From an uncultured Lachnospiraceae bacterium (GTDB lineage Bacteria > Bacillota > Clostridia > Lachnospirales > Lachnospiraceae): a DNA stretch of 58,204 bases. Shown here one piece after another: positions 3,152 through 23,326 of this stretch (position 1 is its first letter; each line of letters begins with the position of its first letter). Both the position numbers and the translations under genes were made by a program. Below the pieces are notes generated by a model that had not been told where the DNA came from, made no database searches, and worked only from the letters and a program-made list of their open reading frames with translations. The stretch spans positions 1 through 58,204 of the forward strand of contig CANQBX010000019.1 of NCBI GenBank assembly GCA_947589095.1. The letters run 5' to 3'.

Positions 3152-3260
3152 CGCGCGGAGTGCGGGCGGCGAATCGGAGAAATTTGTGCGGAATAAGGTG
3201 GGCCTGCGGATTTTGGATGTGTTTTCCCGGCGCGGATTTGTATAGAGAGGAGAGATGAGT

Positions 3261-4346
3261 ATGAAGATCACAAAAATCGACGTGGCGGAAGTGAATATTC
3301 CGCTGGTAACGCCGTTTAAGACGGCCCTGCGAACGGTGGAGACGGTAAATGACATCGTAGTGCGGGTATCGACGGATACCGGCGATGTGGGCTACGGCGA
3401 GGCGCCGCCTACGGCGGTGATCACCGGCGATACGAAGGGATCCATCCGCTGCGCCATCGAGGATTTTATCGCACCAAGCGTTCAGGGCATGGACATCGAG
3501 GACCTGGACGGGATCATGCGGAAGCTGCACAGCTGCATCCTGAAGAATACATCGGCGAAGGCGGCGGTGGACATGGCGGTCTACGATCTGTTCGCCAAAT
3601 CCTGCGGAAAGCCGCTCTATAAGGTGTTGGGCGGCAGCCGGACGGAGTTTGAGACGGATCTGACGATCAGCGTAAATGAGATCGATGAAATGGTTTCTGA
3701 CAGCCTGAAGGCAGTGGAGCAGGGATTTGGAATCCTGAAGATCAAAGTAGGCAAGGAGAGCCTGAAGGATATTGAGCGGATCAAAGCGATCCGCGACGCG
3801 GTGGGGCCGGATGTGAAGCTTCGCATCGACGCCAACCAGGGGTGGACGGCCAAGGATGCGGTGCGGATCATCCGCACGCTGGAGGATATGGGCATTGAGA
3901 TGGACCTGGTGGAGCAGCCGGTGCCGGCCCATGACTTTGCGGGGATGCAGTATGTAACGAGCCAGGTGAACACGAAGATCCTGGCGGATGAGAGCGTTTT
4001 TTCACCGGAGGACGCGATCCGGCTGATCGAAGGCCGGGCGGCAGACCTGATCAATATTAAACTGATGAAGACCGGCGGTATCTATGAAGCGCTGAAGATC
4101 TGCGCCATCGCCGAGAGCTTCGGCGTGGAGTGTATGATCGGCTGCATGCTGGAGAGCAAGATCGCGGTCAGCGCGGCGGCCCATCTGGCGGCCGGTAAGG
4201 GCGTGATCACCCGGGCGGATCTGGACGGGCCGAGCCTGTGCCGGATCGATCCGTATACAGGCGGGCCGGTTTATGAGGGCAGCCGGATCATTATGAATGA
4301 GACGCCCGGAATCGGGATTACAGCGGTGCCTGGGTTCGAAATATAG
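3261..4346 (+). CDS. L-Ala-D/L-Glu epimerase (enolase superfamily; YkfB-like)
   Basis: The 361-residue protein shows the muconate-lactonizing subgroup plan: an N-terminal capping domain, then a barrel with K-x-K (LKIKVGK), metal ligands RIDANQ, VEQPV and ADES, and the second catalytic lysine in NIKLMKTGG. The C-terminal DLDGP motif is typical of dipeptide epimerases that invert L-Ala-D-Glu from murein peptides. AGGAG (3248-3252) is 8 nt from the ATG at 3261 but only 2 nt from an in-frame ATG at 3255, so 3261 is preferred. It sits between a beta-lactamase-fold hydrolase and an NlpC/P60 gene, matching the ykfB-ykfC theme of Bacillus. Confidence 0.92.
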   Translation: MKITKIDVAEVNIPLVTPFKTALRTVETVNDIVVRVSTDTGDVGYGEAPPTAVITGDTKGSIRCAIEDFIAPSVQGMDIEDLDGIMRKLHSCILKNTSAKAAVDMAVYDLFAKSCGKPLYKVLGGSRTEFETDLTISVNEIDEMVSDSLKAVEQGFGILKIKVGKESLKDIERIKAIRDAVGPDVKLRIDANQGWTAKDAVRIIRTLEDMGIEMDLVEQPVPAHDFAGMQYVTSQVNTKILADESVFSPEDAIRLIEGRAADLINIKLMKTGGIYEALKICAIAESFGVECMIGCMLESKIAVSAAAHLAAGKGVITRADLDGPSLCRIDPYTGGPVYEGSRIIMNETPGIGITAVPGFEI

Positions 4347-17080: not shown

Positions 17081-19168
17081 TTAATTTTCAATCAGCCCAT
17101 AAGGGACTTTTGCTCCATACAGGTTGGCTCTGGAGCCGGTGACGGTGAGGCGCAGGAGATTGGTTTCTTCTGTGAGAAATCCCGTTAGGTCGAACGTGTG
17201 CGGCGCCCAGAAGGAGACGCCGGAGGGCCTTCCGTTGACCGAAAGCTTCGCCATTTCTTCCGCTTCCAGTGTGATCACGCCGCCCTCTCCGCGGGGGAGA
17301 ACCGCTGTATAAGTGATCACGGCGTTTTTCGAATCCTGCTGTTCTATGACAAACGTCGGGGTCTCCATATGCGGTCGGCTGCTTTCGGCGCTTTTCGGCA
17401 GGTCGGAGAATTCCTGCTCAGTGCAGGCGAAGATAAGAAGGCTTCCGCGCCGAGGCAGGATGAGGCGTCTGTCAAACCTGCCGGTTTCGTCGTTTCGCGG
17501 GCCGGGCTGTCTGTCAAACCTGCGCACTTCTCCACTCCACAGATCAAACTGCCCGGCCGGGCCGTCGAAGGGAAGTTTCACGCCGATGTCGATATCCGTC
17601 TCGCCCGTATTTGTAAGGAATACGCACTCCGTGCCGAAACGGCGGAACCGGATAGAGCGCAGTGCAGGCTGGGGCATCTCACAGAGAATGTCCCGCCCGG
17701 CGCTTATGATATCGCGGCTTACGCCGGGAAAACGGTTCTCCGGATCGATGACGGCGGAGAAACGCATATCTTTGCAGACCAACTGTCCATTTTCTTCCCG
17801 GCATTCGTCCCAGAAACTTTGGGGCAGGTACAGAAAGCCAATCTGATTTTCAAAAAGAGGCGCGACAGCCTCCGGCATCAGTTCCCGGTTGCGGCACAAC
17901 ACCGCCACGGGAGCGTGAAGAACCGTATCGGTCATAAGGCAGGAAATGCGCTTTATATAGTTCGTCCATTTCTCATAATGCGGCCACCAGATGGAGTGGG
18001 GGCCGACGTCCGGGGGGCGCTCGCCCTTTCTGGCGCCCCGGATGGAATAGTAGAACGCGTGGAGGATATAGAGATTAACGCCGCGGACGGCCAGGTAATC
18101 GATGAACCATTTCATATCTCCGGCCGTCATGCTCCAGGGGTTTTTCTCGTCCCCGCAGACGCCCAGACATTCACTGGAATTGCGCCGGCGGCCCAGGAGA
18201 CGTGCCGCGTCGGCAGAGCATTTGCCCTGGACGGAGTCGCGGCCGGTCAGATCGCCCTTTTCCGGGGCCACCTGGCGGTAGACCAGGTCCTGGCCGGGAA
18301 TATGGAAATGACGCTCCCGCTCGATGTCGTCGGAGGCGTCCGGGTGACCCATAAGGGAGATATCATGCTCCCGGCACCAGGCAGACAGGGCGGAGTAGTA
18401 GACGTCGTTCTCCCGTTCCATGATCATATGCGCATAGAGCCGGGTGTCGTCATTCACATCCCCCTCGAAGAGAGCGAAAAGGTTCTGAAGATTTCCTCCG
18501 GCATTGGTAAAGATCCCGGCAAAACCCCGGGTCCAGGGCCGCATATTCCTTACGCAGCGCCCCGTGATGCTGGGTTCGTCAGTGAAGAATCCGATGACGG
18601 TGGAGCCGAAATATTCCCGGAAATGGCTGTAATACGCCTCGTGGGTAAGTTCGATAAAGCGTGCCACGGCGTCCGGATTAAGCAGATCCGCGCTGGCGGG
18701 GGCGTTCGGTTCCCCATCGTCCTCGCCGTAGTGGACTCCTCGGATAGTGCCGCGGGTAAACCGGGCAACCAGCGTCCGGCTGTCCCTCTCCGCCAGGATT
18801 TCATCGCCGGCCTCCGGCGCGTCCGTTACGGTAATACCGATGCTGGCAAGCTCCGGATGGTCTTTCACCACCTGGCCGCAGGCGGAACCGGAAGGGTACA
18901 TGCCTTCGTCGTAAAAGACGACGCGCATTCCCAGTTCCCGGCAGGTCTCAAGGGCGGTGCGGATGTAGGAAAAGAAGATCTCGGAGAGATAGCCGATGCG
19001 TTTGGGAAGGCCCATTCTGGGGTGGAGCACAACGCCATCTACGCCATGGGCATGAAAGTCCGCAAGCTGGCGGCGAATCTCCCTGTGGGTCAGATCGCCG
19101 TTCAAGAACCAGAAAGGGAAGGGGGTAAACTCCGGGGCCGGATTCCTCAAAGCTTCCAGAAGCCGCAT
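17081..19168 (-). CDS. GH106-like glycosidase (putative alpha-L-rhamnosidase family)
   Basis: The 695-residue protein has the N-terminal signature of this family: FWFLNGDLTHREIRRQL (about 19-35), GVVLHPRMGLP, and FYDEGMYPSG (about 85-94). FFTDEPS follows near 190 and a beta-rich C-terminus ends in NLLRLTVTGSRANLYGA. No signal peptide is seen, so the enzyme is probably cytoplasmic and acts on imported oligosaccharide. It is shorter than classic GH106 enzymes of about 1000 residues. TCACCTCC at 19174-19181 is a perfect ribosome binding site on the minus strand and fixes the start. The true substrate is not shown. Confidence 0.75.
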   Translation of the reverse strand: MRLLEALRNPAPEFTPFPFWFLNGDLTHREIRRQLADFHAHGVDGVVLHPRMGLPKRIGYLSEIFFSYIRTALETCRELGMRVVFYDEGMYPSGSACGQVVKDHPELASIGITVTDAPEAGDEILAERDSRTLVARFTRGTIRGVHYGEDDGEPNAPASADLLNPDAVARFIELTHEAYYSHFREYFGSTVIGFFTDEPSITGRCVRNMRPWTRGFAGIFTNAGGNLQNLFALFEGDVNDDTRLYAHMIMERENDVYYSALSAWCREHDISLMGHPDASDDIERERHFHIPGQDLVYRQVAPEKGDLTGRDSVQGKCSADAARLLGRRRNSSECLGVCGDEKNPWSMTAGDMKWFIDYLAVRGVNLYILHAFYYSIRGARKGERPPDVGPHSIWWPHYEKWTNYIKRISCLMTDTVLHAPVAVLCRNRELMPEAVAPLFENQIGFLYLPQSFWDECREENGQLVCKDMRFSAVIDPENRFPGVSRDIISAGRDILCEMPQPALRSIRFRRFGTECVFLTNTGETDIDIGVKLPFDGPAGQFDLWSGEVRRFDRQPGPRNDETGRFDRRLILPRRGSLLIFACTEQEFSDLPKSAESSRPHMETPTFVIEQQDSKNAVITYTAVLPRGEGGVITLEAEEMAKLSVNGRPSGVSFWAPHTFDLTGFLTEETNLLRLTVTGSRANLYGAKVPYGLIEN

Positions 19169-19228
19169 ATGAATCACCTCCGCGCAGAAGATATCTTTAG
19201 CCGCAACTGCAGCGGCTGTCACAGCTAT

Positions 19229-19292: not shown

Positions 19293-19321
19293 TTGACAAT
19301 ATAGCGGATCTATGATATTCT
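19293..19321 (+). promoter_or_regulatory. Promoter of tetR-type gene
   Basis: TTGACA (19293-19298) and TATTCT (19316-19321) have 17-bp spacing. The -10 abuts a perfect palindrome. Confidence 0.75.
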
Positions 19322-19322
19322 T

Positions 19323-19343
19323 TTCAGCACACAGTGTGCTGAA
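19323..19343. promoter_or_regulatory. Palindromic operator in front of tetR-type gene
   Basis: The core CAGCACAC-A-GTGTGCTG (19325-19341) is perfectly symmetrical, and one TT/AA pair extends it at each end. It lies between the -10 and the AAGGAG ribosome binding site, a position where a bound TetR dimer would block its own transcription. Confidence 0.8.
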
Positions 19344-19357
19344 GGAGACATAAGAGT

Positions 19358-19936
19358 ATGGCGGAGAATGTACAGCTGATTCGCGATGAAATGAGCGGAA
19401 AGATCGTGGACGAAGCCGCCTGGATCGCTCTTCGCGAAGGCGCCGGGGAAGTCACGGTGCGGAAGATCATACGTGCACTCGGCGTGACGAACCGGGTATT
19501 TTATAATCGTTTCCACAATGTGGAAGAGGTTTTGGGCATCGTCTATCAGGATATGGCTGTGAAAATGCGCCGGAGTATTATGGAGCGGTTCGATCCGGAA
19601 GGCGATTTCTTCGGACAGATCACGGACATCGCCGCCGGTACGCTGAAGCTTTCCTATCAGCTGAAACTTGGCATGAATCAGTACGTCTTCATTCAGGACA
19701 GCATTTCTTCGGAAAATTTCCTCTGGTGGCAGGAACATATTCGGGAGTATATCGATCTTGGCAAGGAGAAGGAACTGCTTCGGCCGGACCTGGACGGCGA
19801 AGCCATGAGCTACGCGATCTGGTGCTTTATCCGGGGGTACAATACCGACGCTCTGGCGCGGGAGATTCCCGAGGAGGAGGCTGTGAGAGGATTCCGGTAT
19901 TCGTTCGGAGTATTTCTGGATGGGATGAAGGGATGA
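19358..19936 (+). CDS. TetR/AcrR-family transcriptional regulator
   Basis: The 192-residue protein has an N-terminal TetR helix-turn-helix (GAGEVTVRKIIRALGVTNRVFYNRFHNVEEVLG, about residues 28-60, given here only as a span with key residues T34, G42 and F49) and an all-helical ligand domain. The palindrome at 19323-19343 just upstream is the likely autoregulatory operator. It is divergent from the GH106-like gene and upstream of the dehydrogenase fusion, so either could be its target. A second palindrome before the fusion gene has a different sequence. Confidence 0.9.
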   Translation: MAENVQLIRDEMSGKIVDEAAWIALREGAGEVTVRKIIRALGVTNRVFYNRFHNVEEVLGIVYQDMAVKMRRSIMERFDPEGDFFGQITDIAAGTLKLSYQLKLGMNQYVFIQDSISSENFLWWQEHIREYIDLGKEKELLRPDLDGEAMSYAIWCFIRGYNTDALAREIPEEEAVRGFRYSFGVFLDGMKG

Positions 19937-19965: not shown

Positions 19966-19982
19966 GCATATTGTCAATATGC
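19966..19982. promoter_or_regulatory. Perfect 17-bp palindrome upstream of the dehydrogenase fusion
   Basis: GCATATTG-T-CAATATGC is perfectly symmetrical and lies 30 bp after the tetR-type stop and 101 bp before the next start. It is a plausible operator, but differs in sequence from the 19323 palindrome, so a different regulator may bind it. No convincing promoter was found in this spacer. Confidence 0.55.
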
Positions 19983-20083
19983 AGGAAAAACATCGGTGAA
20001 TAACAAGCCGGAAAAATCATCTGTGACGTTTTTTATATATTATGGCATATCCTGTGCTGTATTATAAAGGAGGACCGATTGAA

Positions 20084-22663
20084 ATGAATCCGTTTATCAA
20101 AATAGGCTGCCGCGCCTACCAATTCTGCTTCAAGCTGGCGATCCCGATACTGCCCTACCGCGATCCGGAGATCATAAGAGATATCAGCGAAGTTCCGGGA
20201 AAGCTGCAGGCCCAAAAGATCAGCAGGGTTCTCATAGTCACCGACGCGGGTGTGAAGGCCGCAGGGCTTTTGGAACCGCTGGAGCGGGAGCTTCATAACG
20301 CCGGTATCCGGTACGGCGTTTACGACCGTACCGTCGCGAATCCGACGGTAAAGAATGTGGAGGAGGCCCGGGCTCTCTATGTAAAGCATGGCTGCCAGGC
20401 GCTGATCGGCGTTGGCGGCGGATCGGCCATCGACTGTGCCAAGGCGGTGGGCGCCAGGATCGCCCGCCCGCGCAAGCCGGTGAGCAGAATGCGGGGGATC
20501 CTGAAGGTTCTGCGCCCGATCCCCTATCTGATCGCGGTGCCCACCACAGCCGGAACCGGGAGCGAAGTGACATTGGCGGCCGTCATCACCGATTCGGAGA
20601 CCGGCCATAAGTTCCCGATCAATGATTTCCCCCTGATCCCGAAGCTGGCGGTGCTGGATCCGGCGAACACGAAGAGCCTGCCGAAGCATATGGTTTCCAC
20701 GACCGGCATGGACGCTCTGACCCATGCGGTAGAGGCGTACATCGGCGGTTCCACCACGAAAAGCACCCGCGCCGACGCGCTGGACGCCGTAGAGCTGATA
20801 TTTGCGAATCTGGAAAAGGCGTATTACGACGGGGACGAAGCGTCGCGCCGCGGCATGCTGAACGCTGCCTTTCTGGCCGGCCGGGCATTTTCCAAATCGT
20901 ACGTAGGCTATATTCACGCCGTGGCCCACTCTCTGGGCGGCGCTTACAATATCCCCCACGGGCTGGCCAACGCCGTGCTGATGCCGATCGTTCTGGATCT
21001 CTACGGCAAGGCAGCTTATAAGAAGCTCCATGAGCTGGCGGTTGCCGCCGGAATCGCGTCTCCGGGCGAGTCGGATGAGGCGGCAGCCCGGCGGTTCATC
21101 GGAGAGATCCGCGCCATGAACCGGCGCATGGGCATACCGGAACGCCTGACGGGGATCCGCGCGGAAGATGTGCCGAAGCTGGCAAGACACGCCGCGCGGG
21201 AAGCCAATCCGCTCTACCCGGTGCCCGTTCTGATGGACGCCGCCGCGCTTGAGAAGATCTATTACAAAGTCATGGACAGAGGAGAAGAAATGAACATCGA
21301 AACGATTCTGGAGAAGCAGAGGGAATTCTTCGCTTCCGGGGCCACCCTGCCGGTGGAGTACCGGATCGCCGCTCTCAAGAGACTGCGCGAGGCCGTGAAG
21401 CGGCATGAAAATGAGATCGCCGCCGCGCTTAAGGCAGATCTGGGCAAGAGCGACTACGAGGGATTTATGTGCGAGACCGGGCTGGCGCTGACAGAGATCA
21501 CCTGGATGATCGACCATGTCCGTTCCTTAAGCCGGGAAAAGACGGTCGCCACGCCGCTGGCGCAGTTTGCCTCCCGAAGCTTCGTGAAACCGTCGCCTTA
21601 CGGCAATGTGCTGATCATGAGTCCCTGGAACTATCCGTTCCTGCTGACCATCGATCCCCTGGCCGACGCCATTGCCGCGGGAAATACCGCGGTGCTGAAG
21701 CCCAGCGCCTATTCGCCGGCTACGAGCCGGATCGTGGCGGAACTGGCGGCCGAATGTTTCCCGCCCGAGTATGTGGCGGTGGTCACCGGAGGCCGGAAGG
21801 AGAACGCGAAGCTTCTGGAGCAGAAATTTGACATGGTCTTCTTCACCGGAAGCCAGGTGGTCGGAAAAGAAGTCCTGCACCACTGCGCCGAGAGGCTCAC
21901 GCCCGCGGTTCTGGAGCTGGGCGGCAAGAGCCCCTGCATCGTGGACGCAACGGCGAACCTGAAGCTGGCGGCGAGACGTATCGTCTTTGGAAAATATTTG
22001 AACTGCGGACAGACCTGCGTGGCGCCCGACTATATTCTCTGCGACCGGTCTGTGAAGGACCGGCTTGTGGACGCCATAAAGGCGGAGATCGTCCGGCAAT
22101 TTGGCGCGGACGCATTGGCGAATCCCGATTACGGTCATATCGTGAATCGGAAACATTTTGACCGCCTTATGGGGATTATCGATCCGGATAAGGTAGTGAT
22201 TGGCGGACAGAGCGACCCAGATGCGCTGCGGATCGTTCCTACGGTCATGGATCGTGTCGGTTGGGATGATCCGGTGATGGGGGAGGAGATCTTTGGGCCG
22301 GTTCTGCCTGTTCTGACGTTTGATCGCTTTGAGGATGTGTTTATGCTTCTTCGGGGGAGACAGAAGCCCCTGGCGCTTTACATTTTCTCGAAGGACAAGG
22401 CGCATATCCGGGCCGTCACCTCGCGTATCTCCTTCGGCGGCGGGTGCGTCAACGATACGGTGATCCATTTGGCCACCAGCACCATGCCGTTCGGCGGCGT
22501 CGGGGAGAGCGGCATGGGCGCTTACCACGGCGTGCGCGGCTTCGAGGCGTTTTCCCACCGCAAGTCTATCGTAGATAAGAAAATGTGGATCGACCTTCCG
22601 ATGCGCTACCAGCCGTATGCGCGGAAGCTTTATGGGCCGCTGCTCAGGGTGTTTCTGCGGTGA
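20084..22663 (+). CDS. Bifunctional iron-type alcohol dehydrogenase - class 3 aldehyde dehydrogenase fusion
   Basis: The 859-residue protein joins two enzymes. Residues 1-400 are a group III iron-containing alcohol dehydrogenase: GVGGGSAIDCAKAVG, the metal ligands in GMDALTHAVEA (D210, H214), and HAVAHSLGGAYNIPHG. Residues 403-859 are an aldehyde dehydrogenase resembling ALDH3 (SPWNYPF, FFTGSQVVGK, LELGGKSP, catalytic Cys645 in NCGQTC). AdhE has the opposite domain order and an acylating ALDH. AAAGGAGG (20066-20073) favours ATG 20084 over 20042. An intact ribosome binding site and ATG lie at the domain junction. The likely reaction is alcohol to aldehyde to acid, or the reverse. Confidence 0.88.
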   Translation: MNPFIKIGCRAYQFCFKLAIPILPYRDPEIIRDISEVPGKLQAQKISRVLIVTDAGVKAAGLLEPLERELHNAGIRYGVYDRTVANPTVKNVEEARALYVKHGCQALIGVGGGSAIDCAKAVGARIARPRKPVSRMRGILKVLRPIPYLIAVPTTAGTGSEVTLAAVITDSETGHKFPINDFPLIPKLAVLDPANTKSLPKHMVSTTGMDALTHAVEAYIGGSTTKSTRADALDAVELIFANLEKAYYDGDEASRRGMLNAAFLAGRAFSKSYVGYIHAVAHSLGGAYNIPHGLANAVLMPIVLDLYGKAAYKKLHELAVAAGIASPGESDEAAARRFIGEIRAMNRRMGIPERLTGIRAEDVPKLARHAAREANPLYPVPVLMDAAALEKIYYKVMDRGEEMNIETILEKQREFFASGATLPVEYRIAALKRLREAVKRHENEIAAALKADLGKSDYEGFMCETGLALTEITWMIDHVRSLSREKTVATPLAQFASRSFVKPSPYGNVLIMSPWNYPFLLTIDPLADAIAAGNTAVLKPSAYSPATSRIVAELAAECFPPEYVAVVTGGRKENAKLLEQKFDMVFFTGSQVVGKEVLHHCAERLTPAVLELGGKSPCIVDATANLKLAARRIVFGKYLNCGQTCVAPDYILCDRSVKDRLVDAIKAEIVRQFGADALANPDYGHIVNRKHFDRLMGIIDPDKVVIGGQSDPDALRIVPTVMDRVGWDDPVMGEEIFGPVLPVLTFDRFEDVFMLLRGRQKPLALYIFSKDKAHIRAVTSRISFGGGCVNDTVIHLATSTMPFGGVGESGMGAYHGVRGFEAFSHRKSIVDKKMWIDLPMRYQPYARKLYGPLLRVFLR
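21278..21292 (+). promoter_or_regulatory. Internal ribosome binding site and start codon at the fusion junction
   Basis: AGAGGAG (21278-21284) stands 5 nt before an in-frame ATG (21290) that encodes the first residue of the aldehyde dehydrogenase module (MNIETILEKQ). This is what a separate downstream gene would have, and may still allow a free ALDH to be made. Confidence 0.7.
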
Positions 22664-22780
22664 GTCTGCGGCGAGAAGATTTCTGTGGCGGCGCAGCGTA
22701 CCAGAGGGGAACGAAACGCCGCCGTGAGATTACGTCAGTATGCCAAAAAACGAGCCAGTGATGTGTTTTTTTGTATTTCC

Positions 22781-22816
22781 ATGCGAGCAGGACGTCAGTG
22801 ACGCCCTGCTCGTATT
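22781..22816. repeat. REP-like element, copy C
   Basis: GCGAGCAGG-A-CGTCAGTGACG-C-CCTGCTCG forms a long near-perfect palindrome and matches copies A and B at 16902-16973. It lies between the converging dehydrogenase and regulator genes and can serve as a bidirectional terminator stem. Confidence 0.65.
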
Positions 22817-22862
22817 CGGAAGCGGGAACGGCTTTTGGAGAGCGCGGCGGAACAGGGCTTTA

Positions 22863-23326
22863 TCAAAACGATGAATCTTCCTGCTTTTTCCAATGACCAA
22901 GCTGCGGGAGCTGCGCTTCAAAAATGCCCTTGCCTGCTCGGGCGGGAAGTTTTCATTCGACAAATGCTCTACCAGGAAATCCGTCAGTTCTCCGACGCTC
23001 TTGTAAACAAATTCGCCGTCAGTGTAGCACCATTTGCAATAATCTTCATTAAAATCGCCGTCCGGTTCGCGGCTTATCTGGCCGTCGTCGTCAAGCGGCA
23101 TTCCGCAGCACTGGCAGATAAGTTTTCTGGGAGAACCGAGGAGCGTGTTGACCGAAACATCGAAAAGCTTAGATAAAAGCTTCAAAGTGTCGGTATTCGG
23201 CACCGTGTCGCCATTTTCCCACCGGCTGACCGCCTGTCGGGTCACATAAACCTTTTCGGCAAGCTCTTTCTGTGACAGACCTGCGTTTTCCCGCAAGCTG
23301 TGTATTATGTCTTTTGTTGCGTTCAT
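22863..23326 (-). pseudogene. XRE regulator with C-terminal zinc ribbon, frameshifted near its end
   Basis: The N-terminus (about 1-60) is an XRE helix-turn-helix (LSQKELAEKVYVTRQAVSRWENG). A four-cysteine zinc ribbon follows, CQCCGMPLDD...YCKWCYTDGEF. After EQARAF the frame breaks in a T5 run on the minus strand (22920-22924). The expected end, FEAQLPQLGHWKKQ then DSSF and a stop at 22863, is intact in the next frame. Without correction the frame runs on through REP copy C to 22730, giving an unrelated tail. One missing T, real or a sequencing error, explains it. The restored protein would have about 154 residues. Confidence 0.8.

Follow-up and report, generated by a model that had tools for sequence, protein, structure and literature searches.

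We found that a gene in a contig from an uncultured Lachnospiraceae bacterium encodes an iron-type alcohol dehydrogenase (ADH) fused in front of a class-3 aldehyde dehydrogenase (ALDH), which is the reverse of the domain order in AdhE. The window, as we use the term, is the whole stretch of 58,204 nucleotides that was analyzed. Our main reading, to which we assign a probability of roughly 0.7, is that an operon pair became a single reversed ADH-ALDH gene through loss of a stop codon, that the product is a two-site oxidizing enzyme under TetR control, and that the ribosome binding site (RBS) at the junction is mainly a decaying relic. The features of the locus and the evidence for each are as follows.

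19293 to 19321, forward strand: promoter-like site TTGACA-17-TATTCT before the TetR-like gene (consensus match only).
19325 to 19341, forward strand: operator-like palindrome CAGCACACAGTGTGCTG between the promoter-like site and the TetR-like start (position, conservation).
19358 to 19936, forward strand: TetR-like regulator, 192 aa, directly upstream of the fused gene (TetR_N match, conservation).
20043 to 20059, forward strand: degenerate copy of the operator before the fused gene, with 3 mismatches; perfect in L032 (sequence comparison).
20066 to 20074, forward strand: putative RBS of the fused gene, AAAGGAGGA (anti-Shine-Dalgarno pairing, −11.6 kcal/mol).
20084 to 22663, forward strand: fused gene, iron-type ADH then class-3 ALDH (open reading frame, Pfam, fused orthologues).
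20084 to 21271, forward strand: iron-type ADH half, aa 1-396 (Pfam, PDB alignments).
21278 to 21292, forward strand: putative relic RBS AGAGGAG, 5-nt spacer AAGAA, and ATG (aa 403) (sequence, anti-Shine-Dalgarno pairing).
21290 to 22660, forward strand: class-3 ALDH half, aa 403-859 (Pfam, alignments, residues).

The gene is a single open frame of 859 amino acids without an internal stop. The mechanically listed frame begins at 20042, and we took 20084 as the start because the putative RBS lies shortly upstream of it and homologue matches begin there. Pfam placed Fe-ADH at aa 34-193 (1.3e-44), ADH_Fe_C at aa 206-395 (8.2e-44) and Aldedh at aa 398-829 (2.4e-87), confirming a preliminary description of this DNA in which an iron-type ADH precedes an ALDH3-like enzyme in one chain. 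The front half carries the Fe-ADH domains and the Asp/His/His/His site of iron-type (group III) ADHs; its putative iron ligands D210, H214, H278 and H292 have the spacing of the FucO metal site, and we take their roles to be those in FucO. It aligned to 3owo, 8zrl, 3bfj, 8zwd and lactaldehyde reductase 7qlq, and its closest solved relatives were alcohol dehydrogenase 2 (3owo) and methanol, 1,3-propanediol and lactaldehyde enzymes. The rear half matched class-3 enzymes over nearly its full length, the closest being 6k0z (2.9e-126), 3sza, fatty aldehyde dehydrogenase 4qgk and class-3 enzyme 1ad3, and it keeps the putative catalytic C645, general base E611 and N516 at the spacing of ALDH3A1, where the equivalent residues presumably have these roles.

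Both halves are under purifying selection. Among 28 pairs of 8 fused sequences the median dN/dS was 0.096 for the ADH half (27 usable pairs), 0.279 for the junction (15 pairs) and 0.076 for the ALDH half (27 pairs), values to be read with synonymous sites near saturation (median pS 0.6). The close pair formed by the window gene and L003 agreed, with pS of 0.16 and 0.21 and pN of 0.02 in both halves. (L-numbers denote loci and G-numbers genomes of our comparison set.)

AdhE likewise joins an ALDH-superfamily domain and an iron-type ADH domain in one chain, in the order ALDH then ADH, opposite to that of the window protein. The ALDH of AdhE is CoA-acylating. The window ALDH half, judged by its sequence, does not appear to be of this EutE-type acylating kind: it matches class-3 enzymes and keeps the Glu of the ELGGK motif, presumably the general base. 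The label "AdhE-like" in the preliminary description therefore holds for the pair of domains and not for the type of ALDH. Against the AdhE model PRK13805 (NCBIfam) the window protein scored 249.6 bits, with a cut-off of 951, and the top-scoring AdhE chain among PDB entries (174 bits) matched in the ADH part only. The best bifunctional PDB match was BdhE (9LDL; 288 bits in two stretches), also an independent ALDH/ADH fusion, whose order is described as ALDH-ADH (PMC12454647), as against ADH-ALDH here. The class-3 ALDHs themselves (ALDH3, FALDH and the cyanobacterial AldE) lack a front ADH domain. Beyond a mention of only five reversed-order proteins in InterPro in the article text, supplements aside, of Konno et al. 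2025 (PMC12454647), we found no literature on the reversed ADH-ALDH fusion.

We searched for relatives by protein comparison. At an E-value of 1e-60, matches were present in 197 of the 397 family genomes, in 21 of the 26 from the genus and in 41 of the 138 from genus g23; at 1e-100, 132 of the 392 order-level genomes and 60 of the 398 phylum-level genomes had one. Another 54 loci were taken from one scan of genome contigs. Most of these matches were not the fused form. Within the genus only 8 of 26 genomes had a match of at least 84% identity, several of them fragments, others being weak ADH matches, and in genus g23 a match at that identity occurred in 3 of 138 genomes, together with a fragment in G1246 at 77%. 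Extraction gave 159 ADH and ALDH pairs. Dropping 19 incomplete rows left 140 that were complete by our limits, and removal of 32 duplicates left 108 distinct ones. Nine of these 108 were fused and 99 were separate genes, so that the domain order was recovered in relatives and the fused form is not a universal and old arrangement without two-gene counterparts. Some genomes of genus g1 hold separate pairs instead (G1128 and G1120 with an internal stop, and G1124).

Seven distinct genes made up the main fused clade: the window gene, L003, L033, L034, L035 (which lies at a contig end and lacks the first 40 residues), L038 and L039. They were 75.1-95.8% identical to each other, and the six others were 77.1-95.8% identical to that of the window. 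Further copies were partial (L036, L040, L043) or damaged (L042, L085). All 13 named main-clade records come from "Lapin" metagenome genomes, a word that we read as rabbit gut. In L042 (positions 232-2379) the ADH half has two internal deletions, the ALDH frame is intact and the 3′ end of a DegV gene precedes; the copy lies at a contig end and may reflect real decay or an assembly fault. L085 (positions 3259-4272), also at a contig end, has about 90-94% DNA identity to the window gene and several internal deletions in succession, with short stretches of shared sequence at the joins. Several candidates for further fusions, suggested by large open-frame values, were rejected. Those in G057, G182, G316, G367 and G644 (L086, L088, L089, L087 and L132), G1124 (L186) and G1240 (L222) have separate frames or a stop between the genes, and G631 (L133) has an ALDH match only. 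The L088 sequence cuts into its ADH at a frame break.

The main clade of 7 rows had a support of 100 in a tree of the 108 pairs and was nested among separate pairs. This tree required three changes of fusion state, which was also the minimum forced by its well-supported branches. In a 48-row tree under a mixture model the main clade was again recovered (100/100), and a single origin occurred in 0% of 200 bootstrap trees. The AU test rejected one clade of all nine fused rows (p-AU 3e-54), as well as the main clade with L109 (2e-47), the main clade with L012 (6e-6), and L109 with L012 (5e-47). The fusion thus apparently arose three times, with two of the origins, L109 (G538) and L012 (G295, a long branch), each represented by one genome. 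Among the matches listed, no further stop-free match through both halves was seen in 20 matching genomes out of 58 in the family of G538, or in 29 matching out of 145 relatives of G295. Descent of the window's fused form from adjacent separate genes is the simpler reading in an unrooted tree. We prefer gain over loss because 99 of the 108 pairs are separate, while unrooted counts alone cannot decide.

The separate pairs suggest how the join could have come about. In the 98 with an ATG found, the ALDH start lay near or inside the end of the ADH gene: after the last ADH sense codon by 0-20 nt in 27, 21-60 nt in 16, 61-130 nt in 13 and more than 130 nt in 4, and before it by 1-4 nt in 17 and by more than 4 nt in 21. 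Two of the 14 sister rows, L004 (AGA TAG GTG ATG) and L041 (AGT TAA GTT ATG), carry an ADH stop that is in frame and separated from the ALDH ATG by a single codon, the same distance as in the fused genes; the remaining 12 differ in frame or distance. Because the stop in L004 and L041 is in frame and at a fitting distance, its loss without an indel would suffice for the join. Other routes to the junction exist. The ancestor would have been a two-gene operon, an iron-type ADH followed by a class-3 ALDH with its own RBS in or just after the 3′ end of the ADH gene, and in this Lachnospiraceae lineage an in-frame loss of the ADH stop would have made them one gene. The preliminary description had proposed stop loss between operon genes; the derived state, the shared frame and the two fitting sisters agree with it, and the change itself is what we infer. 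In L145, a sister of L109, the two genes overlap out of frame by 89 nt.

Two other accounts of the single frame were weighed. Recombination could have joined the ADH and ALDH of different operon lineages, with the fusion at the breakpoint, and the two halves do prefer different neighbors, which could mean such an origin: the ADH half grouped with the L053 group (100/98.7) and the ALDH half with the L013 group (100/100), and the mean identities (fused-osc against fused-sis) were 0.623 and 0.589 for ADH and 0.628 and 0.680 for ALDH. However, the AU test does not reject an ADH tree with the same sisters as the ALDH (p 0.179), the concatenated tree supports those sisters (99/98), and the pairs in L004 and L041 require stop loss only. 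We regard recombination as rather unlikely. An assembly or sequencing artefact, which might be suspected since the named main-clade records are metagenome assemblies and L042, L043 and L085 contain breaks, has next to no probability when set against seven distinct fused genes with 75-96% mutual identity and dN/dS below 0.15 in both halves. Sequencing error does not account for the window gene, because six other distinct genes carry the in-frame fusion as well; the artefact reading is refuted for the main clade, and it may still apply to the singletons L109 and L012.

We also examined the junction on the stop-loss reading. AGAGGAG is present at 21278-21284, followed after 5 nt by the ATG at 21290, exactly as the preliminary description had it. 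Among the 22 internal in-frame ATGs of the window gene, the junction ATG has the strongest upstream anti-Shine-Dalgarno pairing (−9.1 kcal/mol, compared with a median of −2.95), exceeding the median of the 98 separate ALDH starts (−8.3; quartiles −9.3 and −5.9). It also ranks first in L003, L033 and L039. The site drops to fourth in L038 (−5.7) and fifth in L034 (−5.3), its pairing is weaker in L036 and L042 (both −6.9), and L035 has lost both the ATG and the RBS, the ATG being retained in 10 of the 11 junctions seen. At the junction, 9-codon windows showed a synonymous divergence of 0.61-0.79, compared with a gene median of 0.60; this lay above the value of 53-94% of all windows, so that no synonymous constraint was found there. 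A conserved, selected internal RBS and start was not found in the fused relatives, and in L109 there is no ATG at the junction. Because the RBS is weaker in four relatives and gone in one, and the junction is without synonymous constraint, the site more likely represents a relic than a second start. The proposal of a relic RBS at the join thus gains support, being the best site inside the window gene and weakened or gone in relatives.

Alternatively, the internal RBS and ATG could be kept on purpose, yielding free ALDH alongside the fusion protein. The top rank of this ATG in four genes, its retention in most junctions and a pairing in the window as strong as at separate ALDH starts are in favor of a dual product, as is L042, whose ALDH frame is open behind an ADH half that deletions have disrupted, though this copy is near a contig end. 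The same evidence that led us to call the site a relic, namely the falling pairing in L038, L034, L036 and L042, the double loss in L035, the unconstrained synonymous sites and the missing ATG in L109, argues against it, and we consider this account possible and doubtful. The earlier idea of free ALDH from the internal start is accordingly not borne out across the clade, and the window organism itself may make some. A second alternative concerns the product, which might pass the aldehyde directly between domains in contact; the preliminary description had suggested that a toxic aldehyde may be channeled. The activity pair is the same as in AdhE and BdhE, fusion of ADH and ALDH has apparently happened repeatedly, and both of those enzymes are described as having evolved domain contacts and elongated loops absent from their unfused sisters (PMC12454647). 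Within the two domains, the linker lying outside the comparison, the fused clade showed no indel of more than one residue; the differences were one ADH residue missing near aa 250 and one extra ALDH residue near the C-terminus, besides the ALDH start Met, which local matches often trim. L109 has no fusion-specific insertion and L012 has one residue. The window clade thus appears to lack fused-specific insertions of the kind that form the spirosome interface loops of AdhE, and since no fusion-specific loops were found, AdhE-like channeling is not supported and we judge it quite improbable. According to the same article, neighboring unfused ALDH/ADH pairs have no predicted contacts (PMC12454647).

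In keeping with the preferred reading, the product would be a single chain in which two active sites act one after the other. From the families and residues, the ADH half would convert an alcohol to an aldehyde with NAD+, and the ALDH half would use NAD(P)+ but no CoA to oxidize the aldehyde to the free acid. Because the linker has only about 10 residues and there are no new loops, what the fusion most likely secures is synthesis at a 1:1 ratio and co-localization, rather than a tunnel. The enzyme probably oxidizes hydrophobic alcohols to acids. Short-chain or aromatic substrates are also possible given the scores of the ADH half to lactaldehyde reductase (283.5 bits; cut-off 523) and ErcA (283.8; cut-off 550) and of the ALDH half to benzaldehyde dehydrogenase (413.6; cut-off 550).

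The surroundings of the gene yielded a putative regulatory set that is new here: a TetR-like gene with the candidate operator CAGCACA-N3-TGTGCTG behind promoter-like sites. The window TetR-like protein scored 22.2 bits for TetR_N, just below the cut-off of 24, and its homologues in L033, L034 and L038 pass. Of the 6 main-clade genes that have 1 kb or more of sequence in front of them, 5 have the TetR-like gene upstream, separated from the fused gene by DegV in L033. It precedes none of 69 other pairs, in a search that covered homologues of the window TetR only; L044, L049 and L136 have MarR-type genes instead. The palindrome ends 16 nt before the TetR-like start, directly behind the promoter-like site, and in L032, L033, L034 and L038 a site stands in front of both the TetR gene and the gene that follows it. 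A scan of seven of the roughly twelve main-clade genomes gave 13 places with the operator at up to 1 mismatch, compared with 2 for the reversed control pattern. Twelve of the 13 places precede a TetR-like gene, a DegV gene (or remnant) or a fused gene; the 1-mismatch site in G1231 C60, inside an open frame resembling a binding-protein gene, we took as chance. In G1121 (L039) the fused gene has no adjacent TetR gene. Its TetR-like gene (81% identical) is on another contig that it shares with a DegV gene (88% identical to that of L033), each preceded by the operator, and the fused gene itself follows TTGACA-17-TATAAT (a 12/12 promoter-like match) and then the operator. Judging by position and conservation, the TetR-like protein would bind this sequence just behind the promoter and control expression. 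A second perfect 17-nt palindrome, GCATATTGTCAATATGC, lies at 19966-19982 between the TetR-like and fused genes; we rejected it as an operator, as it has one mismatch in L032 and was unlisted at the other loci compared.

The set includes a gene for DegV, a fatty-acid-binding protein, in two relatives. In L033 the gene order is TetR, DegV, fused gene, and L038 has a DegV remnant. Of 73 pairs flanked by 1 kb on each side, only 7 had DegV within 300 nt, and two of these 7 belong to the main clade; additional DegV neighbors beyond those 73 were seen at L014, L020 and L074 and at the ALDH loci L047, L211, L212, L214, L216 and L221. Among the matches listed, G210 was the one genome, of 30 holding a pair, in which DegV stood next to it. 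The FakB proteins are of the DegV type. L033, L263 and some separate pairs have a DegV gene that is adjacent or under shared regulation; none is beside the window gene. None of the five DegV genes of the window genome has an operator at up to 1 mismatch, and the operator copy before the window's fused gene is degenerate; both points, like the small share of pairs with DegV nearby, count against our main reading. Co-regulation with a DegV/FakB-type protein in relatives would point to alcohols or aldehydes of medium or long chain as substrates and to a fatty acid as product. Oxidation of a fatty alcohol or aldehyde to a fatty acid is our best guess, because FakB proteins are described as binding fatty acids for phosphorylation and AldE, a class-3 ALDH, as oxidizing fatty aldehydes (PMC3594298).

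Protein evolution that can repeat itself has been modeled on the fusion of ALDH and ADH, a proposal in which fusion comes first and domain contacts later (PMC12454647). At the level of sequence, the main fused clade matches the first step of this model. AdhE and BdhE already hold contacts, so a reversed fusion that lacks new loops and has near relatives with two genes makes the order of events directly testable through comparison of fused with separate enzymes, and the operator set offers a handle on substrate and inducer. A wider proposal, which we put forward tentatively and hold to be doubtful, is that reversed fusions recur in Clostridia (three times in our sample) at a "just fused" stage preceding any interface, with the window's lineage placing the enzyme in a TetR/FakB-type regulon that supplies membrane lipids with fatty acids made from fatty alcohols or aldehydes; if true, these fusions would be the missing stage of the AdhE and BdhE story.

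Divergent from the TetR-like gene, a frame at 17081-19222 (reverse strand) encodes a 713-aa protein with a below-threshold match to alpha-L-rhamnosidase GH106 (26.3 bits; cut-off 29). A link to sugar fermentation through this neighbor was dropped, because, among 18 loci compared, L032 from the same genus was the only one to share the flanks beyond the TetR-like gene at high identity, and then only in part. On the other side, at 22730-23326 (reverse strand), a 198-aa protein joins HTH_3 to a putative zinc ribbon (Zn_ribbon_2).
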